Positions 3,046-35,107 of a stretch of DNA of 35,109 bases are shown here, piece after piece. The notes under the pieces were generated by a model that had not been told where the DNA came from, did not search any database, and was given only the letters and a program-made list of their open reading frames with translations. The DNA comes from a virus. Positions within the stretch are counted from its first letter, which is position 1, and every line of letters starts with the position of its first letter. A program made the position numbers and the translations under genes. The DNA is taken from positions 1 through 35,109 of the IMG/VR virus record IMGVR_UViG_3300034061_005220, one strand, 5' to 3'.

Positions 3046-3929
3046 CCCTGCAAATTGTCCACCCCTTTGTGAACCTGAAAGCCGACGGCGTCGACACGAC
3101 CGTCGTGCGCCCGTCGGACTGGAACGACGACCACACGATCACGTTGGCTGCGGGCAAAGTCCTTGGCCGCGACACGTCTGGCGCCGGCGCAGCGCAAGAG
3201 CTCCCCCTGTCGTTTACCTCTGCAGGTGACGCTACGTTCACTGCGACGGGTGCGGTCAAGCTGACGGCGGGTACGACGGCCCAGCGCCCCGGAACGCCTC
3301 TGGCAGGCATGGAGCGGTGGAACACGACCCTTGCCGTCAAGGAGATCTACGACGGGGCCAATTGGGTTCCGTACGCGCTCGAGGCCGCTATTACCGCGGC
3401 GATCGCCGCCGCAGTAGCCGCCGCAGTGCCGACCGGCTCGATCCGCCCCTGCCTTAAACTGACAGCAGACACGGGTTGGGTGCGGCTCAACGGGCTGACG
3501 ATTGGATCGGCTTCCTCGGCGGCTACCGAGCGGGCCAACGCCGACTGCGAGACGTTGTTCAAGTATCTCTGGGACAACCTCGATGACACGCGAGCCCCTG
3601 TGTCTGGTGGCCGTGGCGTTTCGGCGACGGCAGACTGGGCATCCAACAAGCGCATCACGCTCCCCTCGTCCCGCGACCGGGTCTTGGTGGGTATGGCCAC
3701 GATGGGCAGCACTGACGCGGCTCTGATCTCGTTGTTCGACACGACGATCATGGGCAACACCGGCGGCGACGAAGCACATACGCACACCGCCACAGCAGAT
3801 ACTGCCCCGGGTGTTTGGGGCATCGTCGGTAATGGCCCAGCGGCTAGTAGCCATACACACGTAATCACGGTTGCCAACGGTAAGGCGATCCCACCCGCGC
3901 TGGTAGTCTGCGTGCAGATCAAGCTCTAG
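3042..3929 (+). CDS. Tail fibre with collar-like C-terminus
   Basis: A 295-residue fibre protein. The N-terminus (FVNLKADGVDTTVVRPSDWNDDHTI) has the short beta segment with P-S-D-W-N-D-D-H found at the start of many phage fibres. An Ala-rich helix (AAITAAIAAAVAAAVPTGSI, coiled-coil-like) leads to a collar-type domain: GWVRLNGLTIGS, ERANADCETLFKYLWDNL, then ITLPSSRDRVLVGM and two HxH clusters (EAHTHTA and SSHTH), ending PPALVVCVQIKL. Collar domains of short tail fibres use such HxH pairs to bind metal in a trimeric shaft and often end with a hydrophobic I-K/A-L. Likely role: a receptor-binding or shaft subunit on the virion. The upstream stop and this ATG overlap. Confidence 0.78.
   Translation: MTLQIVHPFVNLKADGVDTTVVRPSDWNDDHTITLAAGKVLGRDTSGAGAAQELPLSFTSAGDATFTATGAVKLTAGTTAQRPGTPLAGMERWNTTLAVKEIYDGANWVPYALEAAITAAIAAAVAAAVPTGSIRPCLKLTADTGWVRLNGLTIGSASSAATERANADCETLFKYLWDNLDDTRAPVSGGRGVSATADWASNKRITLPSSRDRVLVGMATMGSTDAALISLFDTTIMGNTGGDEAHTHTATADTAPGVWGIVGNGPAASSHTHVITVANGKAIPPALVVCVQIKL
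3214..3229. repeat. P16 palindrome copy
   Basis: TTACC, spacer TCTGCA, GGTGA. One arm mismatch. Inside the collar-fibre gene. Confidence 0.6.
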
Positions 3930-3976
3930 GCCTAGTACCCGCGTTCTGATAAAGTAACTCTCAACAGGAGGCATCC

Positions 3977-4588
3977 ATGCAGGATTTCGACGCAGTAAGG
4001 GCTCAGTTTTTCGAGCCGACCGGAGAAGACGCTCCCGACTACGGCATGTACCGTCCCAGCGCCACCGAGATCGCGATCGCTGTTGGCGGCGTGAAGGTCG
4101 CCAGCTTTGGGTCGGGTACTACCGGCGCCTCGCCGCGGTGTGTTCATACTGGCGGTCACTCACCGGCGACCAACGCTGCTGGCACTGACGCGACGCCGGT
4201 AGTCACCGAAACGTACATCGCCGAGATCCTCGTGCCGACCGCGATGCTCATGACCGGGTTCGCCCTGTTCAACGGCAGCGTCGCCAGCGGCAACATCAAG
4301 ATCGGCCTCTACAGCAAGGCCGGTGCGGTTCTCGCGCAGTCCGCTTCGACGGCGATGTCGGGTACGGACGCCTTCCAGCGCGTGCCGCTCACGGCAACGT
4401 ACCAGCTGGCCCCGGGCACCTACTACATCGGCCTGCAGGTCGACAACACGACGGCCCGCTTCAACACCCACACGTTCGGCAACTTCGGCGCATCGAAGAA
4501 GACTGGCGAGACGTACGGCACGCTCACCACGATCACGCCGCCGACGACGTTCACCACGGCTCTCGGCCCGATGGGCGGCCTCTACTAA
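3977..4588 (+). CDS. Small beta-rich virion protein, possible adhesin
   Basis: A 203-residue protein with AGGAGG seven bases before the ATG. The first ~45 residues (MQDFDAVRAQFFEPTGEDAP and GMYRPSATEIAIAVGG) look like an attachment segment. The rest is Thr/Gly/Ala-rich with alternating hydrophobics (TAMLMTGFALFNGSVASGNIKIGLYSKAG and APGTYYIGLQVDN), the pattern of a jelly-roll or carbohydrate-binding beta sandwich. No membrane segment, signal peptide or catalytic motif. It sits between the collar fibre and the giant spike, so a decoration or receptor-binding role is plausible, but no family was recognised. Confidence 0.6.
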   Translation: MQDFDAVRAQFFEPTGEDAPDYGMYRPSATEIAIAVGGVKVASFGSGTTGASPRCVHTGGHSPATNAAGTDATPVVTETYIAEILVPTAMLMTGFALFNGSVASGNIKIGLYSKAGAVLAQSASTAMSGTDAFQRVPLTATYQLAPGTYYIGLQVDNTTARFNTHTFGNFGASKKTGETYGTLTTITPPTTFTTALGPMGGLY

Positions 4589-4601
4589 CAACGGCGGGGC
4601 T

Positions 4602-4617
4602 TTACCCGGGAAGGTAA
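4602..4617. repeat. P16 palindrome copy, perfect, over a ribosome site
   Basis: TTACC, spacer CGGGAA, GGTAA, with one more T/A pair outside. It ends three bases before the ATG at 4621, and its right arm is the Shine-Dalgarno element. Confidence 0.85.
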
Positions 4618-4620
4618 ATC

Positions 4621-5130: not shown

Positions 5131-5811
5131 ATGGCTTTAACTCCGCTTTTCACTGACGGCTGCGACACCTGTTCTACGTCGTACGCTGAAACGGGCACCA
5201 TCGAGACGAGCAATCTCTACGTCGAGATCCTGCTCCCGATTGACGCTTCGACGCTCGCTGTGCAGATCACGGGCACGTGGACGGCGACGCTCTTGTTTGA
5301 GGGCACGGTCAATGGCGATGACTGGTTCTCTGTGGACATGCAGCCGCTCCCTTCGGGCCTGCAGGTAAATTCAGCGACTTCGAACGGTGTGTGGCAAGGC
5401 AACGTCGCCGGCTACTCTAAGTTCCGTGTGCGTACGACGGCGATTACACTCGAGGCAGATGTTTCGATCAGGGTCACGTCTGGCCCCGCGACGTTGCCTG
5501 TGTCGACCGATGATACGTCGGCGCTTACGTGGGCTCGCAGCGCCGTCACGCTTACTGGCGCTACCGACCAAGTGTTGCTCGCAGCTGACGCCAGTCGTCG
5601 AGCGATTATGCTTTACAACCGCGACACCAACGATCTCGCGCGCTACGACATCGCAGGACAGTCGATCAACGCCGCCGCTGATGAAGGCATTCCGCTCAAC
5701 GCTGGGATCTCTCTCCACAGCTACAGTGGGCAAGACGCCCCCACGGGCACGATTACGATTACGGGTACCGCTGGCAACATCATTACTGTGTACGCCGGCA
5801 CGACCGCGTAA
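5131..5811 (+). CDS. Beta-rich structural protein, unknown function
   Basis: A 226-residue protein with GAAGGAAG upstream of the ATG. The N-terminal part (FTDGCDTCSTSYAETGTIETSNLYVEILLPID) contains a CDTC pair, unusual among these otherwise Cys-poor structural genes. Beta-sandwich-like stretches follow (VQITGTWTATLLFEGTVNGDDW; FRVRTTAITLEADVSIRVTSGPATLP), and a second repeat-like module at the C-terminus (QVLLAADASRRAIMLYNRD, GTITITGTAGNIITVYAGT). The pattern F-E-G-T-V-N-G-D-D-W is one I associate with phage decoration proteins. Position just before the spike suggests a virion surface or tail-tip component. Family not identified. Confidence 0.55.
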   Translation: MALTPLFTDGCDTCSTSYAETGTIETSNLYVEILLPIDASTLAVQITGTWTATLLFEGTVNGDDWFSVDMQPLPSGLQVNSATSNGVWQGNVAGYSKFRVRTTAITLEADVSIRVTSGPATLPVSTDDTSALTWARSAVTLTGATDQVLLAADASRRAIMLYNRDTNDLARYDIAGQSINAAADEGIPLNAGISLHSYSGQDAPTGTITITGTAGNIITVYAGTTA

Positions 5812-5827: not shown

Positions 5828-8800
5828 ATGAGTATCAACCTCGGCTCTCTTCCGTTACCTTTTGCGGTTACCAACAAAGCAGCTCTGAGCGCACTTGGGA
5901 CGATCGCAAGGTCTGTACTAGTAAAAGACCGCACCACTGTCGGAGATAACGGCGGCGGCCTCTTTACGTTCCGCACCGGAGATCAGTCGGCGTACATCAC
6001 CGCTGACCCGCAGGGGGGAGTATGGGTCGCGCCGGATAGCGATCCGACGGGTGCGTCTGGTGCGTGGCAGCGGCTGTATGCCGGAGCCTTGAACCTGCGT
6101 TGGTTTGGTGGTGTGGGCAACAACTCAACCGACAACCAGCCTGCGTGGGCTTCTATCGACACGTACGTCGCAACACTGAACAGTGGCAGGCAAGAGGCGG
6201 CGGAGGTGTTTGTCCCCGCCGGTATCTACAAGCAGTCTGCGACGACGTTGGCGTCGAGCTACATCATCCGTGGCGAGGGCGATGAGGCGACCGAGTTCCG
6301 CCCCATGACTTCGGCGCAGGCGCACATTTTCCAATTCACAGGCCCCGTCGCCCAGATGCGGGACTTCGGTATCCTTGGGTGGGCGACCCGCACTCCCGCA
6401 GATTTTGCCTTGGTGGGCATCATCTCCGATGGCGGAGAATATGAGTTCACAAACTATCGTGTCTATAATTGTGTGGAGCCCTTCTGGCACAAGCGTGGTC
6501 GCCGCTACAACAACCACACAGGATCGATTGGTGTGTTGGGTGAAGGCGGCATCGGCATTCACCTTGCTGGCGTGGACGGCGCGGCCAACGCGCTGACGGC
6601 GCAAAGCTGCGTGAACAATCCCATCACGGCCCAGTCGTGGTCTGGCGGCGTCCTGACATTCACGACCACAAACGCGCACGGATTCGCTCCCTACGACTCT
6701 TTCATCATCTACGGGGCAACCCCCAGCGGTTACAATGGCACCTTCCGCGCCGTGTCGGGCACGACCGGCTCAACCCTGCGTGCTGAGTTGGTGGCGGACC
6801 CCGGCGCTTCGTCTGTCCTCGGCACGATGACAGTCGCGACTTTTGTTGCGACCGATACGACTCGTGTGCGCCGCACTGCCAAGTTCAACATCTACGGATC
6901 AAGCCCCAACGGCTACAACGGCCAGTGGATTGCCAACACCGGAAGCACTGGCGCTACGTTGGTGGCGTGCCTGTCGAGCAACCCCGGCGCTTCGACGGTT
7001 CTGGGCACCTCGTCGGCGGCGCGTGGTTGGGGTGCAGTCACGTCGGAAACCCGCATCGGGCCGAAAGTAGCAGTCTACTCCGGCTCGTCTTCCGCGTCGC
7101 TGCAGAACCTCCTCGGCCAAAGCTGGTCAAGCGGTACGGTTACATACACGACGGAGTTTGAACCCAACATGGAGGTTGGCGATCAGTTCACGGTTCGCGG
7201 CTCCATCCCCACAGGGTACAACGGCACCTTTACGGCGACGGCAGTTGGTGAACGCGAAGTTTCTGCCGCGCTGGTCACGAATCCTAACCTGACGCCAAAC
7301 ACGTTGACATCTCAGACGTGGTTGAATGAAGTTGCAACGTACACCACCACCACCGCCCACGGCCTCGCTCCGGGCGATGTCTTCACCATTTCGGGAAGTG
7401 TCCCCACCGGCTACAGCGGCACCTTCACGGCAATTTCCGGCACCGCCGGATCGACCATAACAGCGGTCGTCTCCGTTGACCCCGGCGCGTCCTCGACGCT
7501 GGGTAATCTCATCGTCTACGGCGAAATCTACGGGCGCTACAACGGAACGGCAATCCTGCTCGACACCGACAACGGTGCCACCATCATCGAGAACTCGGAG
7601 ACGGGTTCATGCAACTACGCCATCCGCATCGCAGACACGCTGGGGCTTGGCGACCAAGATGGAGACAACTATCGAGGCACGGGATTCCTGAAGTTGCGGG
7701 GCATCACGACCGGCAACTGTGGCATAGCGGGCGTATCTATCGAAGCCAACGGACGCTCGTTCAAGGCGTTCAGTTCGTCCTTCAGTGCCCCCGGTGCGGA
7801 CAACGCGGATGGTGTCTACATCGACTCCAATCTTGCCTCTCCGCAGATTACCGGGTGTGAGTTTCACTCCTGTCGCGCCACCGGCATCCGCCTGCGGAAT
7901 GCCTACAGCCTCGCCGTCAAGGGGTCGATCTTCTCCGACATCGGCACACGTGGAGGAGGCACACCGGGTGTCGGCTTGCGGTGTGAGACGGGAGCGGCTG
8001 ATGTTTATTTCTCTGAGAACACGGTCAATCCCGACCTTCAACTGAACACTTCCGCCACGATGGACTACGCAGTCTTGCTGGCTGCTGATGATGGAGACGA
8101 CGCCTTCACGGGCACCGTGTATGTGGCGGCGAACACCATGCTCGACATGAACATCGCTGACTACGGCGATCTGTCTACTTCGGGCACTTTCTCTCTGGTC
8201 AACGACGACTTCGTTGTCGCCCCCTCGTCGTCCACGGCGGCGCAATTCCAAGCCCTTGTCAGCGCAAACGCCGTCGTGTGGATTACTGAGCCGTTCACGA
8301 ACACGTGGACGGAGACCTGTGATCTTTCCGGATTGAATGGCAAGAAGATCATCTCCCTGCCGTGCTACGAGCCAATTATTGTTTCTTCCGCAACCCCAGC
8401 AATTCGTGTTGGTGGCGACGACCATCGTTTCAATGGCGACTGGTGGATCAAGTGCTCCACTGAAACTTCCGTGGATACTCTTTGTGTTGAAGTAACTGCC
8501 AACTCGTATCGACACTACTGGGATACCTTCAAGCCGGAAGACTTCGGCATCGGTATGCAAGGCACGAAGGGTGTGATCCGCGAGATCATTACCCGCAACT
8601 TTGAGCCCCTGAACCTTCTATCGTTCGGCAAGCGGTTCTACTCATCCGACAGCAACTCTGAGATAGGCCTGCTGCGCGACGACCGCATCTACACGTCGAT
8701 CACGGACAGCGACGCCGACAACTGCATCATGTACTCCGTCGGGCCGAATGTCGGCTCCGGCGGCCTGATCGGGTACGAACACGGTGGCGGCCTCCTGTAC

Positions 8801-11593
8801 GGCGCAAAGCACGCACTGCATGTCTGGGGAAATGTTCCGATCCTGACGCAGTCGTGGTTGTCCAATGTCGTCACATACACGACGGAGGAGCCTCACGGCG
8901 TTCAGGTGGGCAACGAGTTTGTCATCACCAGCAGCGCGGGGACGGTGGCGGCAGGTATGGTCCTGACGGCACAAAGCTGGTTTGCGGGCGTTTTGAGTTA
9001 CACGACGACCTCTGCCCACGGACTGTCGCCGGGAGACATGTTCACGGTCGAGAACAGCAGCCCCAGCGGCTACAATGGAACCTACACGGCGATCACGGCA
9101 GCAGGTAGTTCGCTCACCGCCGCGAAGACGACTGGAGTCGGAGCCTCTGTCACTCTCGGTAATGTCGGCGGCTACAATGGAACTTTTGTCGCCATCGCAG
9201 GCACAACGGATCGGACGCTCAAGGCCACGATGAAACTTAATCCCGGCGCGTCCACGACGCTGGGCACATTCGGACCCGCCGCGACGGGTGTCTACAACTA
9301 CGCCCAGACGCCGCGCTCGATCCGTTGGGAGAACTTCACCCGTCGCGGCGGTACAAACACCAGCTTCAGGTTCAGTGCGGGCGCTGATGTTGCGATGATA
9401 AACTGCAAGAGCGACGACGCGGGTACTGCCTGCACGCAGACGGCCCAGTCGTGGTCTGGCGGCGTCTCCACGTTCGCACTTGCGACAGACGCGGGTGTGC
9501 GTATCGGCGACTACTTTTTTGTCGAAGGTGCAAACCCCTCGGGCTACCGGGGGACGCAGCTTGCTGTCAGTGGGACGACCGCGACGGCTGTGAAAGCCTC
9601 GACTGCTACCGATCCCGGCCTGACGCCCAACACGCTGACCGCGCAGACGCGTGCGGACAACGTGATGACGGCAGCAAGCTGGCTGTCCGGCACCGTGACA
9701 TTCACCTGCACGTCGCCGCATGGATTTGCGTCTGGTGACACCTTCATCATCTACGGTGCGACCAACGCCGCCTACAATGGCACGTACACCGCCACGACGG
9801 GAACGACGGGCTCGACGCTCACGGCCAACCTGACGAACAATCCGGGGGCGGCGTCCGGCTCCTTTGGCACCATCACCGTCGTGACGGCGACTACGACCTA
9901 CGCACACGACTTTCTTCGGACCAAGACCTTCACCACCGCTGGAAACACCCCGTCTGGTTACGACGGCACGTTCAAGTCGAACACGGGAACGACGGCCAGC
10001 ACTATCGTCTACTGTCTCAACAGTAATCCGGGGGCATGCACAGTCCCCGGCGTGATGACATCGTTGGGAACTTTCTACAGCGAAGGGCACGGCGTCCACC
10101 TTGAGCGTAACTTTCAAGGTGTGTTTTCGTGGATCGGTGGGCAGTTCCATGAGAACACCAACGGCTTCCGTAACGAGGCTATTAACGCTACGTCGGTGAC
10201 GGTCAAGGATACCCTGATCTACAACTCATCGAACAACGATCAGGCGGGCGTGTGGTCTGGCTACTATCAGGACCCTGCCTGCTCGAACGTGACTCTGGAG
10301 AACGTCACGTCGGGTACGCAGGATTCTTGGCGACCGGCGCGTCGGACAATCACGTTCACTGGTGTCCCCACTACCGGCGACACAATCACGTTCAACGGGA
10401 CGGTTGTGACGTGGCGAACGACCGCCGCCCTGCCAAACGAAATCACCATTCCGGGCACGGCGGCTTTGACCGCGCAGGCGTTGGCTGATTTCATCAACGG
10501 AAATAGCCAGAATGTGCTCTCGGTTATCGGCGCTCTTGTCAGTGACGCTGTCGTCACTGTCTTCCACTACCCCGGCACGGTGGGCAACAGCTATACGTTG
10601 GCGGAGGCCACAAGCAACTGCACGATCAGCGGCTCGCCGCTGGCGGGCGGAACCGGCACCGGCTTCCAGAAATACGGTTTCGAGGGCATCACTCACGGCC
10701 TCAGAAACTGCGTCATCATCAACTGTAACGGAAGGAACAACCTCTCTGGCGCGTTTTCACAGAACCAGTTCCAGTTCCCCGTCACATTCAAGATGACGGC
10801 AAGCGGCACGTTTGGCGGCTTCGCCAACGCGACGCGGTATGAAATCTTCTGTTGGAGCGGCGGCGGCGGGGGTGGCTCTGGCCGACGTGGTGCGGCGGCA
10901 TCGGCACGCTCTGGTGGTTTGGCAGGCGGCGGCACGGTCCCAACGCGCCTGTCGCTACCAGCGGCGGCTATCACGTTCCCCGTCACCGTCACGATTGGCG
11001 CGGGTGGCACGGGCGGCGCTGCGGTCGGTGTAGACGACACTAGCGGCAATGACGGTACTGCCGGTGGCAACACGACGTTCGGGACGTATTTGCAAGCACT
11101 CGGCGGCAATAAGGGCGTTGGCGGCGGCACGGCGGCGCTGAACCCTTACACCGCGTTGGGGGCGGCGACACAGGCGTCTGGGCGTTCATTCCCCGCTGCC
11201 ACCAGCGTCACGGCCTCGATCCTCGTCACCAACGCCAACGACAACAGCGGCCACGAACTTGGCGGCGGTGCAGGCGGCTCCGGTGGCTCCATCTCGACCG
11301 GCAACGCAGACCTCCTTGGCATCCAAGCCAACTACGCAGGGTTTGCCGATCCCGCTTTGTCGGCTCCCGTCGGCCCCGCCGCCGCAGACGTGGCAGGTAC
11401 AGCAGGATCGAACTCTGCGTTGGACTACATTGCAGGCTTCGGCGGCGGCGGCGGCGGCCCTCGCGCTGCGGGCGGTGCTGGTGGGCGCGGCTCTGGTGGT
11501 GGTGGTGGTGGCGCATCACTCAACGGTACGGCGTCTGGTGCCGGGGGGGCGGGCGGTGGAGGTCAGGTCACCATCATCGGCTATTCGGATTAG
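5828..11593 (+). CDS. Giant tail spike: pectate-lyase-like, FCCH-like repeats, Gly-rich tip
   Basis: A 1921-residue receptor-binding spike. Residues ~1-60 form an attachment region. Residues ~60-260 read as the start of a pectate-lyase-type beta helix (LRWFGGVGNNSTDNQPAW, then VFVPAGIYK, the classic D-x-x-A-x-x and 'P-x-G-x-Y' pattern), and beta-helix rungs resume at ~590-1000 (ITGCEFHSCRATGIRLRNA). Two clusters of ~65-75-residue repeats (~265-560 and ~1004-1411) follow the pattern AQSW-x(4)-LTFTT-x(2)-HG-x-APGD-x-F-x-I-x-G-x-x-P-x-GYNGT, like the FCCH domain reported in phage tail proteins. A GDTITFNGTVVTW module follows, then a glycine-rich tip with poly-Gly loops (~1670-1921). Probable role: binding and possibly cutting host surface polysaccharide. 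Catalytic residues cannot be assigned by eye. Its ribosome site lies in a P16 copy. Confidence 0.85.
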   Translation: MSINLGSLPLPFAVTNKAALSALGTIARSVLVKDRTTVGDNGGGLFTFRTGDQSAYITADPQGGVWVAPDSDPTGASGAWQRLYAGALNLRWFGGVGNNSTDNQPAWASIDTYVATLNSGRQEAAEVFVPAGIYKQSATTLASSYIIRGEGDEATEFRPMTSAQAHIFQFTGPVAQMRDFGILGWATRTPADFALVGIISDGGEYEFTNYRVYNCVEPFWHKRGRRYNNHTGSIGVLGEGGIGIHLAGVDGAANALTAQSCVNNPITAQSWSGGVLTFTTTNAHGFAPYDSFIIYGATPSGYNGTFRAVSGTTGSTLRAELVADPGASSVLGTMTVATFVATDTTRVRRTAKFNIYGSSPNGYNGQWIANTGSTGATLVACLSSNPGASTVLGTSSAARGWGAVTSETRIGPKVAVYSGSSSASLQNLLGQSWSSGTVTYTTEFEPNMEVGDQFTVRGSIPTGYNGTFTATAVGEREVSAALVTNPNLTPNTLTSQTWLNEVATYTTTTAHGLAPGDVFTISGSVPTGYSGTFTAISGTAGSTITAVVSVDPGASSTLGNLIVYGEIYGRYNGTAILLDTDNGATIIENSETGSCNYAIRIADTLGLGDQDGDNYRGTGFLKLRGITTGNCGIAGVSIEANGRSFKAFSSSFSAPGADNADGVYIDSNLASPQITGCEFHSCRATGIRLRNAYSLAVKGSIFSDIGTRGGGTPGVGLRCETGAADVYFSENTVNPDLQLNTSATMDYAVLLAADDGDDAFTGTVYVAANTMLDMNIADYGDLSTSGTFSLVNDDFVVAPSSSTAAQFQALVSANAVVWITEPFTNTWTETCDLSGLNGKKIISLPCYEPIIVSSATPAIRVGGDDHRFNGDWWIKCSTETSVDTLCVEVTANSYRHYWDTFKPEDFGIGMQGTKGVIREIITRNFEPLNLLSFGKRFYSSDSNSEIGLLRDDRIYTSITDSDADNCIMYSVGPNVGSGGLIGYEHGGGLLYGAKHALHVWGNVPILTQSWLSNVVTYTTEEPHGVQVGNEFVITSSAGTVAAGMVLTAQSWFAGVLSYTTTSAHGLSPGDMFTVENSSPSGYNGTYTAITAAGSSLTAAKTTGVGASVTLGNVGGYNGTFVAIAGTTDRTLKATMKLNPGASTTLGTFGPAATGVYNYAQTPRSIRWENFTRRGGTNTSFRFSAGADVAMINCKSDDAGTACTQTAQSWSGGVSTFALATDAGVRIGDYFFVEGANPSGYRGTQLAVSGTTATAVKASTATDPGLTPNTLTAQTRADNVMTAASWLSGTVTFTCTSPHGFASGDTFIIYGATNAAYNGTYTATTGTTGSTLTANLTNNPGAASGSFGTITVVTATTTYAHDFLRTKTFTTAGNTPSGYDGTFKSNTGTTASTIVYCLNSNPGACTVPGVMTSLGTFYSEGHGVHLERNFQGVFSWIGGQFHENTNGFRNEAINATSVTVKDTLIYNSSNNDQAGVWSGYYQDPACSNVTLENVTSGTQDSWRPARRTITFTGVPTTGDTITFNGTVVTWRTTAALPNEITIPGTAALTAQALADFINGNSQNVLSVIGALVSDAVVTVFHYPGTVGNSYTLAEATSNCTISGSPLAGGTGTGFQKYGFEGITHGLRNCVIINCNGRNNLSGAFSQNQFQFPVTFKMTASGTFGGFANATRYEIFCWSGGGGGGSGRRGAAASARSGGLAGGGTVPTRLSLPAAAITFPVTVTIGAGGTGGAAVGVDDTSGNDGTAGGNTTFGTYLQALGGNKGVGGGTAALNPYTALGAATQASGRSFPAATSVTASILVTNANDNSGHELGGGAGGSGGSISTGNADLLGIQANYAGFADPALSAPVGPAAADVAGTAGSNSALDYIAGFGGGGGGPRAAGGAGGRGSGGGGGGASLNGTASGAGGAGGGGQVTIIGYSD
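5855..5870. repeat. P16 palindrome copy, atypical spacer
   Basis: TTACC, spacer TTTTGC, GGTTA. One arm mismatch and no purine at the spacer end. Within the first codons of the spike gene. Confidence 0.45.
6614..7510 (+). repeat. FCCH-like repeat cluster 1 inside the spike gene
   Basis: Four consecutive in-frame modules of about 65-75 codons, beginning near 6614, 6831, 7108 and 7309. Shared landmarks are a QSW/QTW start, an 'AHG' turn, a GD-x-F strand, P-x-GYNGT (GYSGT in the fourth) and a DPGAS/NPGAS end with a following LG. The second lacks the QSW start and AHG turn. The copies are diverged, so the cluster grew by old duplication. Confidence 0.75.
8840..10060 (+). repeat. FCCH-like repeat cluster 2 inside the spike gene
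   Basis: Six further modules, two of them partial, starting near 8840, 8959, 9166, 9437, 9641 and 9878. They keep the QSW/ASW start, the GYNGT or GYDGT turn and the NPGA end. The module at 9166 has lost its first half. A 105-codon beta stretch without repeat landmarks separates 9270 from 9437 only briefly, so the cluster is nearly continuous. Confidence 0.72.
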
Positions 11594-20714: not shown

Positions 20715-23700
20715 ATGGCCGTCGCGCCTCGTATCCTAGGCAACGCTCCTCCGGCTCCGCCGGTTGAAGATGGTGGGTCGCTGCTGCTCGACCTTGGAAA
20801 GACGTTTGGGGCGGGTGTCGTTGACCTAGGCGCCCAAGCCGCGGGCGGCCTCGCCGATCTACGCAACCCGACGAACATGGACGGGACGCCGCGCGACACG
20901 CAGCCAACCGAAGCCATGCGCGCGGCACAGGCACTGGGGAACGCGGCTGTTGAGGCGATCGACGACAGCCTTGCTGCCAAGAACCGCCGCGCCGGCGAGA
21001 GCGCCCTGATCCCAGCCGAGGAAGGCCAGCAGGCGTTTATGGAGGCGCCTTTTCGTGCCACCACGATGAAGGTGGCGCGCATGGCCCCGGCGCTAGTGAG
21101 CGCCTTCTTCCTCCCGCAAGGTTGGGCCGGTGTTGGTGCAGGCGCCGCGTTCTTCGGCACGCAGGGTGTGGCTCAGCAACTCAACGAGACCCGTAAACGT
21201 ATCGACGCGATGCCCGACGACCTCATGCAGGAGAAGTCCCCCATCTATCGGGATCTCCGCGCTGAGTACGACGAGCCTGAGGCCCGTGAGAAGTTCATCG
21301 CTGGGCAGAACGATTTTGTGTCGCTCCTGATGGCTGGCGGCGGCAACGCGATTGGCGGCGGCGCGCTGGCGCATGCGCTTAAAGGGCAGGCCGCCAAGAG
21401 CATACTCAAGGGCGCCGGCGTGGGTGTCCTTGATGGCGTGTCCGGTGGGGCTGCGTCGGGCGTCGGTATGGAGGGGGCCCGTCAGCGGGCGGATGTGCGC
21501 GGCGGCTTCAGTGAGAATTACGACCCGGATAAGCTCGCCCTTGCAGCCCTCAACGCTGGCTTCGAGGGTGCGGGGCTGGGTGGCGCGTTCGGCGCCGCTG
21601 GCTCGATGGGCGCTCGCCGCGACCGCGCTCGCGATCGCCTCAATGGCACCGAAGTCCCGCCGGGCGCACCGGACCCGGCGCAGACCGCTGCCCTCGTCAC
21701 CGACAACGAGCCAGACAGCACACGCACGCCGTCACCTCCCGAGGTAACGCCGCCGGCCGCCGGCGTCGCGACGGGCACGTTGGCCCAGCAGATCGAGGCT
21801 GAGCGTGCACGACAGGCTGCCGAAGCTACTCCGCCAGCAGCGGGCGCGCCGCCTGTCGTGCCCCCAACCGACATCACCAAGCCGCCGGGCTCCGAGCCGG
21901 GCATCCCCCCGATGCCGCGCGGTGTCGTGCCGCCTCCCCCTGCAGCTGGCCCAAGGGTGCCCAACCCGCGCACCGAGCAGCTCGTGCCGCCGCCCCCGAC
22001 GGACACGATGCTTGCCCCCGGCCGTCGCAAGGCACCGGCTGAGCGCACCGCTGTGCCGCTCGAGGAGGAAGTGGTTGCGCCGCCCCGCGTGACCGCCGAG
22101 CCGGAGATCCCCCTCCCCCCGGCCGAAGGCGCTCCGCTGCGCGCTGCAGAGGTGCAGGCCGCTGTCAGGGAGATGCCGCAGAAGGCCGCTGAGCCGCCCC
22201 CGTCGCCGCGCCCCACAGAAGCGCCGGCGCCAGCTCCCGAAAAGCCGGCACCGAAGGAGGCCCCCGAAGTCCCGAGAGGGATGCCCAAGGGCTCGACTTA
22301 CCTTGGGGACAACGCCAACGGCGAAGCTGTATGGCAGTACCCAGAGGGTGGTCCCCGTGCCTCTCGTGGCGCGGACAAAGTCCTGCGGGTTATGGCTGTA
22401 GGGGACGAGGTAATACCCCCGCGGTTCGAAGTCGTCGGCGAGAAGAAGGTCGAACTCACTTACCCCGAGCCGCTTGCCCCTGCGGGTAAAGCTGAAGAGG
22501 CTGACGCGCCCGTCGCGCAAGACAGGCTCGTGGCCGATAAAGCTGCTCCTGCTAAACTTGTCTCTGCGGAAGCGGGTAAGCCCCGTGTGTTCCGTGTTGA
22601 GAACACTTGGGCGAAGCAGCAGGAACAGGAGCGCAAAGCACGACAGGAAGAACTCGCGACCGAGCGCAAAAATGCAGCTGAGGCGAAGAGGAAGGTCGTC
22701 GCCCGCAAGGAGAACAAGACTACCCCCAACGAGAATAAGGCCCGAGAGTACATCACCGGCCGGCACCCGAAGTTGGTCGAGGATATTACCCGTGTGGGTA
22801 CGGTCGAAAGCAACGCGCTCAAGGGCGACGAAGCTGCCCAACGTGAGGTGGTGCAGTCGGCGGTGAAGCTTGTGGCCGACGCTAAAGAAGCAGGCGTTGA
22901 GATCCCGCAGCGGACGACGCGCGGCGCTAACACCAATCCGACGCCCTACACATCGCACCTGATCGAGACGGTCCGCTTTCTGAAGGCTGTCAAGGACGCA
23001 GCAAACCTAAAGACTGAGAGCAAGCGGAAGGCTGCTATCGCTGACGCTTTCACGAACTACATCACTGCCGAGCGCGCCCTCCGTTCAGGTGATTTGCAGG
23101 CTGCTGCTGCACGGCGCATTGCTGCGAACGAAGCCGCGAACGCGGGTAGCACACGCGCGAAAAACGAGAACGCGACCCGAGCTGAGGGAGAGCAGGCCGA
23201 CGCTGAGACAGCTAGAAAGAAACTCGGCGACGAGAAAGACCCCGACGACACCGACACCGATGCTGACAGCACGCCTCTCTTAGATGTCGCGCCGGCCCGC
23301 AAACTGACGGAAGCTGAAGAGCTGGCCGCGCTCATTAGAGAGCAGAGCGACGACGCTGCCCGTGAGAAGGCAACGGCTAAAAAGAAAAGCGCCGACGAAG
23401 CCGACGACACCAAGACCGACGCGCTCGATGCTGTGGTCGCGCGCGACGACGCTGACGTCGATCTTGCTGACCAGCGCGACGAGAGCTACTCCCAGCGCAT
23501 GGTTGGCTCGAAGCGGGCGCCGACCCAACGCCGGAAGACGACTGTCCGCGACGAGCTCGAGCCGTACCTGCAGAGGTACGAGAACAGCGACAAGCCGCTG
23601 CCCCGGCTGGCCGTGGCCATCATCCGCAAGGTCATCGACCGCGTCGGAGACACGCCCATCGAGGTCATGAGCCTCGACGAGTACAACGCCATGCGTGTCG

Positions 23701-28708: not shown

Positions 28709-28717
28709 GACAAAAAG

Positions 28718-28747: not shown

Positions 28748-28799
28748 GGTGGCATCACGGTCCTAGCGGGGAGCCTCAGCGCCGTGCAGCACCACCTAG

Positions 28800-28815: not shown

Positions 28816-28818
28816 CGC

Positions 28819-29031
28819 CTAGACCAGCCCGCGATCGACGGCGAGCCACTCCGGCATCGTGACTGTTATGTCTTCGCCTTCACCGGCATCCTTCGGGAGG
28901 ACGTCGCACTCACTCTTCGGGAGGTACACCTCCCTGCCGTCGGCGTCTTCGATCTTGTAGCTTTCTTCGTTGTCGAACAGCAGCACACAGTTGACTTCGA
29001 CCGGGTCGTCGTTGCGTGTTTGGTTGCTCAT
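28819..29031 (-). CDS. Small acidic protein of the replication block
   Basis: A 70-residue protein that starts three bases after the primase-helicase stop. GAGG lies nine bases before the ATG. It reads VNCVLLFDNEESYKIEDADGREVYLPKSECDVLP and ends ITVTMPEWLAVDRGLV. The end pattern (T-V-P/M-x-W-L-A-x-x-x-G-L) and the 'E-V-W/Y-L-P-K/R-S' strand recur in small phage proteins encoded next to primases or polymerases; their role is unknown. Likely last gene of the leftward transcript, followed by the terminator. Confidence 0.6.
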   Translation of the reverse strand: MSNQTRNDDPVEVNCVLLFDNEESYKIEDADGREVYLPKSECDVLPKDAGEGEDITVTMPEWLAVDRGLV

Positions 29032-29034
29032 GGC

Positions 29035-32000
29035 TTAGACCTCAATGATGTCCTGAAACACCGGGTCGTTGTAGTTGAACTCGAGCAACGGCTCTTTCGC
29101 CGTGACGAAGGATGTCCCGGCGCACATCCTCCCACGGATCTCCTTGACCCCAAACTCGCGTTCGAGCTGGTTGCAGATGATCGACGGCGCGATGCCCTGC
29201 TTGCCCAACCAGTGATCGAACGCAGCCTTGCTGATCCGACACCACTGGTCCTGCTCGCCGATCTGGATCTGTACGGCGCGTATGGCCTGCTCCGACGTCT
29301 TCGTCGTGACGGTGCCGGGCGCCTGCACTGCAGTAGGCTGCCATACCGGCGGCTTCAGGCTGCTGCGATGGATGATGTTGGTGAGCACGGTGTACTGCCG
29401 GCGATGCTCGTTGAGGAACCGCGCCAGCACCGTCAGGACGTTGACGCTCTTGGTGACGTCGACCGCGGTGACCGTCCGGCGCATGCGCATGTCGGTGAAC
29501 ACCTGCACCAAGAACTTCGCAAGCCCACCCTCGTCGATCGTCGTGAGCTTCAGCTCGTTGGCGTAGCGGGCGCCGGACATCACCACGGTGATCAGCGCCA
29601 ACCAGAACCGCTCGTCGGCTTGGATCTGGAAGCGCTTCTCCAGTGCCCGCGCCAGCGCCGCCACTTCCTTCGACACCCGCTCATGGTGCTCGCCGAGGAA
29701 CTGCGCGAAGACCAGCCCGGCGTGGCCGTAGTTGTCGTTGAGCGCCGCCGTGATCAGCTGCGCCTGCGTCGGGTCGATCTGGCCAGTTACCGCTGGGGGT
29801 ACTTCGAACTCGAACACCCGGAACAGACCAGCAGTCGTCGTCTTGGTGTGGTCGAGGATGAAGTTGAGGATGCTGTTGTTGGACGTGCTGCACAGCAGCG
29901 TCTGCCATGTGCCGGGGTCGCGGTACGACGTGTCGCTGGCGAGCCGGGACTTCTCCTTGCCTTGGCTGAGCTGGAAGGCGAGGTTCATGAAGCGCTCGGT
30001 ATCCTCGTCGGTCTTCAGCTCGTCCCAGAACAAGGGCAGGTTCTTCGTGTCGCCCAGCTTCTTGAGCACGGCGTTCTGGGTGTCGCTCAGCGACTGCACT
30101 GCCTTCTGCGGGTGGCCCCATACAGCCTGCGCCACCTTCAGCACGGTGGACTTGCCGATGCCCGACTGCACCGACCATGTGCTCATGAGCAAGCCGGTCT
30201 GGCCTGTGAACCTAACCAAAGGCGCCCCGAACGACGCCGCCAAGATGGCATCGAGCGCGGGCCGGCGCTGCTTGCAGATCATCTGGGAGGCCTCGAGCCA
30301 CGGGTCGAGCGCACCCGCCGGGGAATACTGCGACGCCAGCACGGTGTCCGGGTTGGACGCTGGCCGGGGGATACCCTTCGACCAGAGGTGGCTGCCGTAG
30401 ACGAACCCCTCGACCTTGCCGTCTTTTATGGACCAACCGAACGGCTGGCTCTGTACGATGTTCTTGAGATCCGCGCGCATCTTATCGATGAAGGCCACGA
30501 AGAAATTCCCCAGCGCTGGTATATGGTTCAGCTTCACAAGCATGCCTTGCTTGGCGAGGCCCTTGGCAAGGCCAGACTTGTCGGCGATCAGCTCGTACGA
30601 CACGCGGATCTGTCGCTCGTGACCTGCGTGGGTAACTGTCGTGAAGTTGAGAGCCGGCGGCTCGAGCTGCAGCCACGGCTTCTCGATGGTGAACTGGCAG
30701 ATGGGTATGTAGGTCTGGACACCGTTCTCGTCTGTCTCGGTGACGCACACCAGCCCGGCGCTGTCATAGACGTAGCCCTGAGGCAGCGGGAACAGCGAGC
30801 TGGGCGCCACACCTGCAGGGGTAACGACCGCGGTCACGGCGACCGGCTTGATCGTGAAGTTGAGCGGGCTCTGGTTCTTGGAGAAGTTGGGGCAGCTCTG
30901 GCACTCGGGTGCCCCATACCCGGCGATCGTCGCGCATCGCGGCCAGCCAAGGTTGCGCGTCGTCTTGGTGTTGAGCTGCCGCTCGTAGAGCTCGTCGGTT
31001 TCCAACTCGGTGTAGGTCGGGTGCCCCAGCGAGAGCTCGTGTGTTACGTCGAGACTGTCCTGACAGAACAGCGCGATGTTGGTGGTCTGCAGCCAGAGAG
31101 GGTTGTTGTTGCCGGCGCCACCCGACGCCAGCGTGCGCGCGATGAAGGGGCAGCCAGCGGCAACGTCTTCGATGGTTGGCGCGCTCAGCTCGAGCCCAGC
31201 TTCGAGGTTACCTGCGGAGGTAGGCTCAGCGGCCATCTTGGCGGCGAGCACCGCCGATGGAGCACCCAGCGCTGTCAGCTTGGGCTTCGCGGTGGGAAGC
31301 GCCAGCACGCCGACGTAATCCTTGAGCGCGTCTTCGAGTACGTCGACAAAGTAATCGCTACCTGCTGCACCCAGCATGGTGACAGGCTTGGCCTCGCCGC
31401 CCTTCCAGTTGAAGGTACCCGGGGGTCGCAGCAAGCGCACAAGGTCGATGATGCACTGCGTGTCACCGCGGAAGCCCTTGGCCTTGACGCCAGCGCAGAA
31501 CGCATATGACAGCTTCTGCCAGCGCTCAGCAGTGATCGGTTCAGCGAAGCACCAGTGGGCGTGGAACCCACCACTGCCGGACCTGATGAAGAACGTGGGA
31601 CGGGGGAGGCCGAGCTCAGTGCGGATGCGGGTAAACTCGCGCGCCGCTTCCTCGGTGTCGCTGTATCCGGTCGTAAGGTCGTTGGGCTTGACGTCTACGT
31701 CGATGAACAGGCTCTTGAAGCGCGCCGCGTGATCGCGTAGCCGAACCGCCTCTAGATATGTATTACCCTTGCGGCTGGTCTTGGCCTCGGCCTTGTCGGC
31801 GGCGCTCATGCAGACGTAGACGTCGCTCTGCATGGTGTTCATCGCCCAGTCGATGGTGCGAGCAGCTTCCTCGACACTACGGCAAGCTTTACCGGGGAAG
31901 GTAACCAGCTGCTTGCCGCCGCGGAGCACGGGCTCGTTCGTGGCTTTGTCGACGATCTTGACGCCGTAGTGGACGTTTACATAGGTAGGCTGCTCGCCCT

Positions 32001-32061
32001 CTTGGGGCCACGGCAGGGCACGAGCTAGGAACTCGCGCACGTTCGACGTTTGGTAAAACAA
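29035..32061 (-). CDS. Primase-helicase: AEP (PrimPol)-like plus DUF927-like
   Basis: A 1008-residue replication protein. The start is TTG at 32061; no ATG or GTG lies upstream in frame before the stop. The N-terminal ~240 residues show archaeo-eukaryotic primase motifs: FIDVDVKPND (Asp121, Asp123), SGSGGFHAHW (His167/169) and IIDLVRLLRPPGTFNWK (Asp206, Arg212). A Cys cluster (RCATIAGYGAPECQSCP) follows in the middle. The C-terminal half carries SVQSGIGKSTVLK (Walker A, Gly636-Thr639) and LPLFWDEL (Walker B, Asp680/Glu681), the layout of the DUF927 ATPase. The protein would make primers and unwind DNA at the phage fork. No polymerase is in the window. Six P16 copies lie inside the gene. Confidence 0.82.
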   Translation of the reverse strand: MFYQTSNVREFLARALPWPQEGEQPTYVNVHYGVKIVDKATNEPVLRGGKQLVTFPGKACRSVEEAARTIDWAMNTMQSDVYVCMSAADKAEAKTSRKGNTYLEAVRLRDHAARFKSLFIDVDVKPNDLTTGYSDTEEAAREFTRIRTELGLPRPTFFIRSGSGGFHAHWCFAEPITAERWQKLSYAFCAGVKAKGFRGDTQCIIDLVRLLRPPGTFNWKGGEAKPVTMLGAAGSDYFVDVLEDALKDYVGVLALPTAKPKLTALGAPSAVLAAKMAAEPTSAGNLEAGLELSAPTIEDVAAGCPFIARTLASGGAGNNNPLWLQTTNIALFCQDSLDVTHELSLGHPTYTELETDELYERQLNTKTTRNLGWPRCATIAGYGAPECQSCPNFSKNQSPLNFTIKPVAVTAVVTPAGVAPSSLFPLPQGYVYDSAGLVCVTETDENGVQTYIPICQFTIEKPWLQLEPPALNFTTVTHAGHERQIRVSYELIADKSGLAKGLAKQGMLVKLNHIPALGNFFVAFIDKMRADLKNIVQSQPFGWSIKDGKVEGFVYGSHLWSKGIPRPASNPDTVLASQYSPAGALDPWLEASQMICKQRRPALDAILAASFGAPLVRFTGQTGLLMSTWSVQSGIGKSTVLKVAQAVWGHPQKAVQSLSDTQNAVLKKLGDTKNLPLFWDELKTDEDTERFMNLAFQLSQGKEKSRLASDTSYRDPGTWQTLLCSTSNNSILNFILDHTKTTTAGLFRVFEFEVPPAVTGQIDPTQAQLITAALNDNYGHAGLVFAQFLGEHHERVSKEVAALARALEKRFQIQADERFWLALITVVMSGARYANELKLTTIDEGGLAKFLVQVFTDMRMRRTVTAVDVTKSVNVLTVLARFLNEHRRQYTVLTNIIHRSSLKPPVWQPTAVQAPGTVTTKTSEQAIRAVQIQIGEQDQWCRISKAAFDHWLGKQGIAPSIICNQLEREFGVKEIRGRMCAGTSFVTAKEPLLEFNYNDPVFQDIIEV
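29787..29802. repeat. P16 palindrome copy
   Basis: TTACC, spacer GCTGGG, GGTAC. One mismatch. Inside the primase-helicase gene. Confidence 0.6.
30620..30635. repeat. P16 palindrome copy
   Basis: TGACC, spacer TGCGTG, GGTAA. One mismatch. Inside the primase-helicase gene. Confidence 0.6.
30809..30824. repeat. P16 palindrome copy (weak)
   Basis: ACACC, spacer TGCAGG, GGTAA. Two mismatches in the left arm, core kept. Inside the primase-helicase gene. Confidence 0.45.
31208..31223. repeat. P16 palindrome copy
   Basis: TTACC, spacer TGCGGA, GGTAG. One mismatch. Inside the primase-helicase gene. Confidence 0.65.
31889..31904. repeat. P16 palindrome copy, perfect
   Basis: TTACC, spacer GGGGAA, GGTAA. 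Both arms perfect. Near the 5' end of the primase-helicase gene. Confidence 0.85.
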
Positions 32062-33543: not shown

Positions 33544-33547
33544 TCTC

Positions 33548-33970
33548 CTAGTTGCTTGCGCGCCGCACACCGACCGTGCGGAACCTGTTGATGACGACAC
33601 CCGGCGGGGGTGCCTGCTGCTCTTCGATGTACTTCTCTACCGCAGGTGCGTTGGCCTTCATGTCGCACAGATCCCACTCGCCGTTGTCGACAACGAACGA
33701 GCGGAAAGCCTCCGTGTCCTCGACACGGCACGAGGTCTTGTCAGACACGCTGACAGTGCCAGCGGCGGTCTTCGCCGACTTCGTGTTGTTGCTGTTCAGA
33801 TGTTCGAGCAGCTCGGCCTCGATCTGGGCCTTGGCTTCCTTGAAGGGAGCCAGCTCGGCGTCGTGCTTATCCGTGAGAAGCTTGATCTTGTCGCGAAGCT
33901 GCACGAACTGCGCGACGCGTTTCTCGACGTCGATGATCTTTGCCACCGGCGGCGCTGTGGTTGTTTCCAT
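33548..33970 (-). CDS. Coiled-coil protein of the replication block
   Basis: A 140-residue protein, the first of the leftward genes after the promoter at 34030-34057. The ATG is preceded by GAGGG. A long helix (VAQFVQLRDKIKLLTDKHDAELAPFKEAKAQIEAELLEHLNSNN) is followed by a beta part (AAGTVSVSDKTSCRVEDTEAFRSFV) and the ending YIEEQQAPPPGVVINRFRTVGVRR. This layout is frequent in phages and recalls proteins of the Gp157/Gam-like type that bind DNA or helicases, although I cannot place it in a family. The end pattern 'P-P-G-V-x-x-x-R-F/x-x-V-G-V-R-R' is a conserved hallmark. Confidence 0.65.
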   Translation of the reverse strand: METTTAPPVAKIIDVEKRVAQFVQLRDKIKLLTDKHDAELAPFKEAKAQIEAELLEHLNSNNTKSAKTAAGTVSVSDKTSCRVEDTEAFRSFVVDNGEWDLCDMKANAPAVEKYIEEQQAPPPGVVINRFRTVGVRRASN

Positions 33971-34008
33971 TGTGACCCTCTGTGTTGTAGCATGACCCCG
34001 GAGAACCC

Positions 34009-34072
34009 ATTAGTCAATGGGTAAAACATAATTTAGTCACTTATATCCTATTGTCAAGGGGTATGTTTTACC
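34009..34072 (-). promoter_or_regulatory. Leftward sigma70-type promoter nested in an 11-bp inverted repeat
   Basis: On the minus strand TTGACA (34057-34052) is followed by a 16-base spacer and TAAATT (34035-34030), a -35 and -10 pair. The perfect arms GGTAAAACATA (34020-34030) and TATGTTTTACC (34062-34072) flank it, and a TTAGTCA direct repeat lies at about 34010 and 34033. The region is AT-rich in a GC-rich genome. A repressor bound at the arms could bridge the promoter. Confidence 0.65.
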
Positions 34073-34075
34073 TTA

Positions 34076-35107
34076 TTAGGCACGAAACATATCGAGCAAT
34101 TGTCCCTGCACGTCCTGCTTGTTTATTAGCAACGAGTAAATCTTCTTCTCGGTCGGCGTAGCCTGCAGGTGCAGGAACTGCTGCTTGCGCTTCTGGCCCA
34201 CGCGCCGGATGCGGGCGTTCGCCTGATCGTAGATCTCCAGCGAAGTGATCGGCCCGAACCAGATGATGGTGTCCGCTGTCGTCAACGTCAGACCATGTGC
34301 TAGGCACTGCGGGTGAGCGTTAAGAACGCGGTACTGCGATGTGTTCTGAAACGCATGGAAGATCTCGCCGCGCTTACCTGCGGGGGTATCGCCCGACACG
34401 GTGACGACGTCGTGGCCGGCACCGCGGATCTCAGCCTCGAGCCCAGCGAGCGCGTGCTTGAACGCCGAGAACACGAGCACTTTACCCGTAGTGCTGTCGA
34501 TCGCGTCGAGCAGAGCTGCGATACGATCGTCGTTGTCTAGCTGCACGACGCGGCCGTCGTTGGCATACACCCATCCCAGCGACACTTGCAGTAGCTTGTT
34601 CAAAGCGGCACCGGCGTTGACTGCAGTGATGGTCTGCCCGGCGATGAGGGAGAAGCAGTGCTGCTTCAGCTGGTCATATACCAGCTTCTGCTTGGGTCCC
34701 AGATCAACGTCGATGCGGCGAGAGATGTACTCCGGCAGCTCGGTCACGTCTTCAAGGGCGAACCGCACCGACGGCTGCAGCACTTCGAACGCCTGCTCGG
34801 TAGCATCGGGGCGCGGCACCCACTTGAAGGCGTTGATTTTCACCATGAGTTTCTCACGGAAGCGCCCGAAGAACGGCGGTACCCGCGAGGGTGTCACGAT
34901 GCGCGCTTGCCCCCAGACATCGGTCGGGGCGTTGGGCGTCGGCGCGCCCGTCATACCCCACACCCATGTCTTCGTTTGGGCGAACTTCTGCATGGTCTTG
35001 GACCGGCCCGAGGCGTTGCGGTACACGGCCAGCTCGTCCAGACACAGCACGTCGATGTCGGTGCGCTTCTCGAGCTCTCGGATGACGGTCGCGACGCCGT
35101 CGTGGTT
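34076..35107 (-). CDS. SNF2-type helicase, C-terminal part (5' end outside)
   Basis: The leftward frame is open to the right edge, so the N-terminal part with the ATP-binding Walker A is missing. What remains, 343 residues, starts NHDGVATVIREL and shows the DExx box LCLDELAVYRN, motif III GMTGAPTPN, a LVFSAFKHALAGLEAEI strand-helix (motif IV), VTVSGDTPAGKRGEIFHAFQ, GLTLTTADTIIWFGP (motif V) and QANARIRRVGQKRK (motif VI with the Arg finger). This is the usual arrangement of phage SNF2-family helicases, which remodel or unwind DNA in replication or recombination. It is the first gene of the leftward block in view. Two P16-like copies (34374, 34879) lie inside. Confidence 0.85.
   Translation of the reverse strand, partial: NHDGVATVIRELEKRTDIDVLCLDELAVYRNASGRSKTMQKFAQTKTWVWGMTGAPTPNAPTDVWGQARIVTPSRVPPFFGRFREKLMVKINAFKWVPRPDATEQAFEVLQPSVRFALEDVTELPEYISRRIDVDLGPKQKLVYDQLKQHCFSLIAGQTITAVNAGAALNKLLQVSLGWVYANDGRVVQLDNDDRIAALLDAIDSTTGKVLVFSAFKHALAGLEAEIRGAGHDVVTVSGDTPAGKRGEIFHAFQNTSQYRVLNAHPQCLAHGLTLTTADTIIWFGPITSLEIYDQANARIRRVGQKRKQQFLHLQATPTEKKIYSLLINKQDVQGQLLDMFRA
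34374..34389. repeat. P16 palindrome copy
   Basis: TTACC, spacer TGCGGG, GGTAT. One mismatch. Inside the helicase gene. Confidence 0.65.
34879..34894. repeat. P16 palindrome copy (weak)
   Basis: GTACC, spacer CGCGAG, GGTGT. Three mismatches in the arms, core ACCC-N4-GGGT kept. Inside the helicase gene. Confidence 0.35.

Follow-up and report, generated by a model that had tools for sequence, protein, structure and literature searches.

What is the function of a short palindrome that recurs about once per kilobase along a phage genome? The stretch of DNA analyzed here (the window) is a virus record of 35,109 bp (IMG/VR record IMGVR_UViG_3300034061_005220, positions 1 to 35,109; G000 in this study), which encodes a major head protein, an endolysin, virion proteins, a DUF927 primase/helicase, and an SNF2-type helicase. 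A 16-bp palindrome, TTACC-N6-GGTAA, designated P16, is dispersed over it. P16 is very probably the site of a phage-encoded dimeric DNA-binding protein, as the original prediction proposed, and the best explanation as a whole, to which I give an even chance, is a stoperator-like array for such a binder. A search of the open-access literature found no paper on the motif itself, which is not proof of absence.

A recount of the window gave 26 sites with at most one mismatch in the arms, five of them perfect, at the same positions as had been read by eye (Table 1). Dinucleotide shuffles (n = 100) gave a mean of 0.15 sites and a maximum of 2. Synonymous-codon shuffles (n = 300) within the gene set of this study, which preserve the proteins, the codon usage, and the non-coding bases, gave a mean of 5.84 sites, including the unmoved non-coding ones, and a maximum of 9. 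Similar counts in shuffled sequences had been named as a refuting outcome, and they were not found. Thus, chance and codon bias were ruled out by the two tests as the source of the sites, and the synonymous-codon result indicates that the sites are not by-products of peptide motifs. Only the six-base spacer is enriched, with 5 perfect and 21 one-mismatch sites, while each of the other spacers from 0 to 15 has no perfect site and 0 to 2 one-mismatch sites. The spacer begins with a pyrimidine in 23 of the 26 sites and ends with a purine in 25. It was also confirmed that an additional, probable site at 23564 has two changes which compensate each other and keep the symmetry. Two other claims hold with qualifications. 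All three codon phases are represented among the 22 wholly intragenic sites, although unevenly (6, 13, and 3, phase 1 being dominant). The proposed iteration about every 1 kb is true as an average (mean gap 1246 bp) but not as a regular spacing, since the coefficient of variation of the gaps is 1.12 and the largest gap is 7.5 kb (5855 to 13358). This site-free stretch covers most of a gene for a protein of 1921 amino acids (aa) plus the following genes.

Table 1. P16 sites in the window and the two genes used as queries for finding relatives (SD, Shine-Dalgarno sequence)
Feature	Sequence	Coordinates	Strand	Remark
P16	TTACCTCTGCAGGTGA	3214..3229	.	1 mismatch; within gene 3042-3929
P16		4602..4617	.	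perfect; gene junction, centre 11.5 bp ahead of start 4621
P16		4742..4757	.	1 mismatch
P16	TAACCTCTAGAGGTAA	5809..5824	.	left arm has stop codon of gene 5131-5811; right arm has SD of gene 5828-11593
P16		5855..5870	.	1 mismatch
P16		13358..13373	.	1 mismatch
P16		13987..14002	.	1 mismatch; centre 11.5 bp ahead of start 14006
P16		16077..16092	.	perfect
P16		17461..17476	.	1 mismatch
P16		18615..18630	.	1 mismatch
P16	TAACCTTCGCAGGTAA	20696..20711	.	left arm has stop codon of gene 17825-20698; right arm has SD of gene 20715-27401
P16		21732..21747	.	1 mismatch
P16		22474..22489	.	1 mismatch
P16		22786..22801	.	1 mismatch
Probable P16	GTACCTGCAGAGGTAC	23564..23579	.	2 symmetry-preserving changes; additional to the 26
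P16		25003..25018	.	perfect
P16		25736..25751	.	1 mismatch
P16		27402..27417	.	1 mismatch; convergent junction of genes 20715-27401 (+) and 27402-27827 (-)
P16		28234..28249	.	1 mismatch
P16		28800..28815	.	1 mismatch; outside the gene set used
P16		29787..29802	.	1 mismatch
P16		30620..30635	.	1 mismatch
P16		31208..31223	.	1 mismatch
P16		31889..31904	.	perfect
P16		32508..32523	.	1 mismatch
P16		33386..33401	.	perfect
P16		34374..34389	.	1 mismatch
Major head protein gene		905..2017	+	context; query for finding relatives, not a P16 site
DUF927 primase/helicase gene		29035..32061	-	context; query for finding relatives

Is the dyad common among the relatives of this phage? The nearest cultured relative found is Rhizobium phage RHph_TM3_14A (60,889 bp; RHph below), whose major head protein is 72% identical and whose primase is 39% identical to those of the window. 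It has 26 perfect sites with spacer 6 and 8 with spacer 5, and no perfect site at spacers 4, 7, or 8. The other records are mostly metagenomic, many are fragments, and their gene sets are based on open reading frames (ORFs). Since the site sets admit one mismatch, a few of the listed sites may be due to chance. A blind dyad scan of 24 records showed the dyad clearly, in its P16 spelling or another, in 22. The top dyad reached 50 perfect copies against 0.26 expected in G019 and 33 against 0.05 in G030 (spacer 5). G043, represented in the set by one of its two phage contigs plus about 29 kb of chromosome, was weak, and G035 had no dyad. At least 31 sites with at most one mismatch are present in 14 of the 24 records, and at least 31 perfect sites in six. 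The motif is frequent in viral contigs with a shared head, portal, or primase gene. Eight of nine relatives found by the portal gene have at least one site with at most one mismatch; G008 has 65 in 62 kb, while the two most distant have 1 and 0. Primase-related loci of 10 kb or more numbered 51, some of them near-duplicates; the dyad class T?AC?-N5/6-?GT?A was significant in 32 of these and ranked first among all 5-mer dyads in 31. In summary, the P16-bearing clade consists of podovirus-like phages of about 60 kb and includes the cultured RHph and two Bradyrhizobium elements.

The spelling of the perfect dyad depends on the lineage. Most records have TTACC, while G023, G031, G016, and G014 have TTACT, G033 has TTACA, and G022 has TAACT, of which G031 also has some copies; for G022, G033, and the TTACT group, the motif class was taken from the outcome of the scan itself. 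Spacers 5 and 6 both occur in many records, with a lineage preference. The motif is not enriched in the first 49,999 bases of the more distant relatives Rollin, phiM6, HMO-2011, RHph_N3_13, and Skulduggery. Each of them has no perfect spacer-6 site and 1 to 5 with one mismatch, and a single perfect spacer-5 site is present in HMO-2011. Many relatives by the capsid gene alone have no dyad. In two of the capsid-gene relatives a different dyad, GATTC-N13-GAATC, is over-represented, with 10 copies in L088 (0.23 expected) and 9 in L093 (0.24 expected). CACTA-N4-TAGTG in L069 (10 against 0.05 expected) and TACTC-N2-GAGTA in L043 (3 against 0.01) may be spellings of the same kind. In L055, L057, and L060, many CCGG or GGCC pairs at spacings of 5 and 14, with a 9-base period, swamp blind dyad scans; as a guess, these pairs perhaps belong to collagen-like fibre genes.

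Does the palindrome act as DNA or as RNA? Inverted repeats can fold, and some of the sites lie 5 to 15 bp past stop codons, so that a terminator, a processing site, or a hairpin promoter of a virion RNA polymerase might be considered. A folded stem should leave covariation across the spacer, and none was found. The outer spacer pair is of the Watson-Crick type in 12 sites of the window (11.1 expected from independent columns), 23 of RHph (26.0), 28 of G001 (29.6), and 19 of G002 (18.3). The two inner pairs gave 5 (8.7) and 11 (9.1) in the window, 11 (18.6) and 6 (11.7) in RHph, 11 (13.0) and 5 (12.2) in G001, and 9 (11.0) and 10 (10.7) in G002. Thus, no RNA stem has been selected, and P16 is a DNA dyad. 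The deficits of both inner pairs in RHph and of the second in G001 look as if full hairpins were avoided. The overlap of sites with the Shine-Dalgarno sequence (SD) also argues against an RNA hairpin. As for a virion RNA polymerase, motif B of the N4 type is present in none of 33 ORFs of more than 1200 aa, some of which are cut at the ends of the pieces. P16 therefore lacks both features of the N4-type hairpin promoters, the paired stem and the polymerase motif. Both the RNA stem and the virion RNA polymerase were rejected on these grounds, and a role as an RNA hairpin is disfavoured as the least probable explanation of all those considered here.

Have the sites been maintained by selection? 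Perfect sites of one record were compared with the homologous place in a diverged TTACC-type relative. All ten arm bases were retained in 186 of 538 homologous comparisons, which include overlapping loci of one record, while positions shifted by -60, -45, +45, and +60 gave 25, 24, 18, and 13 of 538. When identical subject stretches were counted once, 135 of 397 retained all ten arm bases against 20, 20, 15, and 12 at the shifted positions. By query site, 41 of 69 have at least one relative that retains all ten arm bases, against 5 to 13 of 69 at the shifted positions. The remaining sites are often clearly different in the relatives, and so the array turns over too. Across relatives of any site type, the mean identity of the arms is about that of the flanks, and full retention is still in excess. 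The decay at the synonymous rate that was to speak against a function is thus found only in part: many sites turn over, while some are retained, and part of the sites have been kept by selection at homologous places.

Two bacterial assemblies carry members of the clade, those of Bradyrhizobium genosp. SA-3 and Bradyrhizobium sp. 139. In genosp. SA-3, a whole clade phage forms its own contig of 60,568 bp (L254-L257), whose first 20 bases are not repeated within the final 3.6 kb; this contig may be a plasmid, a free phage, or a contamination. In sp. 139 (L258-L261, L277, L278), late phage genes adjoin chromosomal genes (NadA, glycyl-tRNA synthetase, and others) within a single contig. The early genes are found in a 170-kb contig, of which the first 27.5 kb were read; they occupy its end, up to the point at which the phage similarity stops and a serine integrase gene follows (phrog_95, E 7.5e-71). 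By its gene order, the sp. 139 member reads as a probable serine-integrase prophage, integrated and split over two contigs, although a misassembly is possible.

The proposed scan of host genomes for the motif showed that the two Bradyrhizobium chromosomes are not enriched. All nine perfect sites of the 7.9-Mb genome of sp. 139 and five of the six in the other, 8.7-Mb genome lie in the phage contigs, while a reversed control pattern has 7 and 4 matches in the two whole genomes. With none of nine and one of six perfect sites outside the phage contigs, a regulator or nucleoid protein of the host is a very improbable binder of P16, even though the phage binder is only a candidate and members with different spellings may have different hosts. 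HIP1 is a palindrome over-represented genome-wide in cyanobacterial host chromosomes; P16 shares the over-representation, but has another sequence and is unenriched in the two hosts searched. The bipartite shape and the alternation of 5- and 6-bp gaps would also suit the recognition site of a DNA methyltransferase or a Type I-like enzyme. However, sites of such enzymes are usually avoided rather than accumulated, and no methyltransferase was recognized among the core early families, several of which have no known function. This possibility is hence even slimmer than that of a host regulator.

Where do the sites lie? When each base was assigned to the nearest core gene, the pooled density was 1.13 sites per kb in early regions and 0.48 in late regions, and early exceeded late in 22 of 22 records. 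Part of this excess may be a matter of opportunity, because early genes are shorter. Close neighbours are avoided: 110 gaps of less than 300 bp were observed in 20 records, against 212 expected. The spacing is more regular than random (P < 0.05) in 9 of 21 records (RHph, G002, G008, G023, G026, G019, G012, G015, and G018), while G001 has a surplus of short gaps (19 against 12.5 expected). Unannotated sequence makes up 9.8% of the RHph genome, yet 19 of 50 sites are intergenic by the annotation, and 11 of 61 are centred 10 to 15 bp upstream of a start codon, against 0.5 expected. In the window, four of the 26 (4602, 5809, 13987, and 20696) are centred exactly 11.5 bp upstream of a start. Among 983 sites, ATG occurs 47 to 82 times per offset at offsets 1 to 5 past the site and about 34 times at offsets 10 to 39, an excess of about 144. 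Thus, about 15% of all sites are start-associated, in the SD position. I read this placement as opportunistic, the SD giving one half-site for free.

These features can be put together as follows. A phage-encoded, sequence-specific protein, either dimeric or with two domains, would recognize a pair of inverted half-sites. Their centre-to-centre distance of 10 or 11 bp, about one helical turn, would place both on the same side of the helix, which suits a dimer. Sites of this kind would form an array scattered through the genome, at a higher density in early genes, and the bound protein might form roadblocks to elongation within transcription units and at gene junctions, thus damping or shutting phage transcription. 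The binder is probably also a regulator of its own gene, by way of a site immediately ahead of that gene. In a prophage it would silence the phage genes, and during infection it could bring the early phase to an end. The idea of a dimeric phage-encoded binder fits the lack of enrichment in the hosts, the retention of sites, and the re-spelling between lineages; the protein is only a candidate, and it might serve more than one process. For the roadblock or silencing role in particular, I regard the chances for and against as balanced.

Alternatively, the array may be a genome organizer, in which a phage architectural protein bridges, condenses, or segregates the DNA in replication or packaging, and transcription is not the main role. 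The sites are found in early and late genes alike, near neighbours are avoided, and the placement exploits sequence that is there anyway, for example stop codons and SDs, as if coverage alone mattered. There is also no visible link with integrase genes: the mean site density is 0.85 per kb in 3 integrase-bearing records and 0.75 in 17 others, RHph being treated as integrase-less from a different search than the one applied to the other records. On the other hand, the pooled early density is more than twice the late density, although early genes are shorter and have more junctions. Moreover, sites recur upstream of particular genes. A site lies within -120 to +60 of the start of an early 242-aa protein gene in 15 of 21 records (2.6 expected), which is the highest among 22 families, and near the starts of a 112-aa protein gene and an ATPase gene in 13 of 22 and 12 of 21 records. 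An organizer without a main part in transcription is unlikely, though it is the chief rival of the roadblock model.

Which protein may be the binder in the stoperator-like array? The leading candidate, which is unproven and proposed tentatively, is this early 242-aa protein (QIG67493.1; 18372-19100 in RHph); its gene is absent from the window. Four kinds of proteins are missing from the motif-free G035 but encoded in nearly all records that have the motif and extend over the respective genes: the 242-aa protein, a MoxR-like ATPase, a 73-aa protein, and VWA/DUF2201 proteins. The 242-aa protein was found in 9 of 24 records searched. It is missing from eight further records (G032, G037, G038, G044-G047, and G049), of which the 10 to 23 kb retrieved showed no class dyad. 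This match between presence and dyad is confounded, because presence follows the clade. It was not found in five partial dyad-bearing records (G027, G034, G036, G039, and G040) nor in G050, which has another dyad, and no relatives were found in plasmids. The AlphaFold2 model of the protein is confident and all-helical (mean pLDDT 86, first domain alone 94). With VIA-align 2, the first domain matches 2oer_A best (Z 6.3, root-mean-square deviation 3.6, 103 aligned, chain residues 74-202), which is below the level of a relationship, and this weak similarity is to the C-terminal domain of TetR regulators only.

Several candidates and tests were set aside. The MoxR ATPase, 73-aa, and VWA proteins share the presence pattern of the 242-aa protein but have no recognized DNA-binding domain, and the ATPase and VWA proteins also have relatives in N4-like phages. 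For example, L007, a locus of RHph, holds MoxR ATPase and VWA/DUF2201 genes at 26620-30091, with relatives in N4 (ATPase) and LIT1 (VWA). A twin helix-turn-helix (HTH) protein of RHph (24216-24767) is not a general binder; a search of 35 records gave matches at E <= 10 in four, of which two were weak, a profile search found it in 4 of 24, and no relatives were confirmed in viral contigs. A TerS-like protein is also present in the motif-free G035, and a 92-aa HNH protein is absent from the dyad-bearing G033. A PDB match of the 242-aa profile to Rhobin9 (E 0.00055) is a weak helical stretch, and the open-access literature on this name held nothing relevant. No convincing specificity-determining column was found in any family, the best ones being in families other than that of the 242-aa protein.

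A number of observations weigh against the 242-aa protein as the binder or against the stoperator-like array as such. The 14.9-kb fragment G048 has the 242-aa gene but no class dyad. Neither the whole model nor its first domain has a PDB fold match at E <= 0.001. Of 191 columns in the 242-aa family, a single one is separating, and there each of the four TTACT-type members has a different residue; in the SNF2, 593-aa, and 365-aa families, by contrast, there is a column in which the four members share one residue. Its distance correlation (0.39) is not singled out from those of the VWA protein (0.39) and the major capsid protein (0.38). No conserved HTH repressor was recognized with Pfam and PHROGs among 71 RHph proteins or by family clustering. 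As for the array, 12 of 21 records, including the window, are not more regular than random. A tyrosine integrase is found in 6 of 28 phage records (the set includes G035 and some partial records), and serine recombinases, ParA, and ParB in none of them. Finally, known stoperators are asymmetric and oriented, while P16 dyads are directionless.

The last points bear on whether P16 belongs to a strict immunity system, composed of a lysogeny repressor and its stoperators, with the re-spelled sites as immunity groups. The apparent prophage of sp. 139, the tyrosine integrases, and the shift of spelling between lineages as in Cluster A would suit such a system. However, 22 of the 28 records, the motif-free G035 among them, have neither integrase family and no ParA or ParB, yet the sites are about as dense; in addition, the sites are symmetric and the repressor was not recognized. 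Since the density does not visibly follow the integrase, the array is not purely a lysogeny device, barring lysogeny by unrecognized means. A strict immunity system is thus improbable. Phage-plasmid partition was rejected, with ParA and ParB in none of the 28 records and no plasmid relatives of the 242-aa protein.

How does P16 compare with known systems? The closest precedent is the set of unexplained dyads of the Cluster O mycobacteriophages (the Corndog group). According to their description (PMC4351075), these are 17-bp dyads, TGTTCGG-N3-CCGAACA, with 34 symmetric sites in Corndog; they are intergenic and intragenic and absent from the host, the phages have no integrase or parAB, and binding by a dimer was predicted while the function was left unexplained. 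P16 arrays likewise consist of symmetric dyads, more than 30 of them in 14 of the 24 records when one mismatch is allowed; these are both intergenic and intragenic and are not enriched in the two hosts. The sequence and the spacer of the Cluster O dyads are unlike those of P16, and the phages are unrelated. P16 differs further in the lineage-varying spelling and spacer, the avoidance of neighbours, one apparent prophage, and a candidate binder gene. No later explanation of the Cluster O dyads was found in the open-access literature.

Cluster A stoperators number 20 to 30 sites genome-wide, mostly off promoters, with a consensus that varies by lineage (PMC6550527; PMC9283540), and are 13-bp, asymmetric (PMC4351075), and oriented with transcription. 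They function as roadblocks in the way proposed here for P16: the immunity repressor binds them and stops elongation. P16 resembles them in the number and genome-wide spread of sites and in having a lineage-specific consensus (TTACC, TTACT, TTACA, TAACT), but most P16 records have no recognized integrase. I did not class P16 as a stoperator, because it does not have the defining asymmetry. The start-associated sequences (SAS) of Cluster K are described (PMC3203893) as asymmetric and nearly confined to gene starts, some of them holding the SD a few nucleotides before the start codon; the extended start-associated sequences (ESAS) are inverted repeats that do not resemble RNA hairpins, and their consensus varies from phage to phage. 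SAS/ESAS and P16 share the overlap with the SD, while P16 is symmetric and only about 15% start-associated.

What would such an array mean? A broader reading, conceivable but doubtful, is that a wide phage clade, with and without integrase, both organizes and silences its whole genome by a dyad array and a new early DNA-binding family (the 242-aa protein), in infection and in prophages. The recognition code would then re-evolve, by changes at half-site positions 2 and 5 and a shift of the spacer by one base, and the sites of the array would be rewritten one at a time. The clade offers dozens of related records with one array, several spellings, and two spacers, and cultured members are available, namely four RHph_TM phages of Rhizobium, as well as a probable lysogen in Bradyrhizobium. 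Thus, the function of the array, and the rewriting of tens of sites when the specificity of the binder changes, becomes a testable question. The dyad array may also mark superinfection groups and may give a sequence tag for the clade in metagenomes.

Two minor observations were made in the window. By eye, a GC-rich hairpin with terminal Ts is present at 28718-28747, between the convergent late and early blocks and shortly before the site at 28800; it is missing from the output of a terminator scan. The 2228-aa product of the gene at 20715-27401 matches phrog_37402, which has no assigned function, over a long stretch, and its C-terminal part resembles DarB antirestriction proteins (phrog_10089, E 5e-27).

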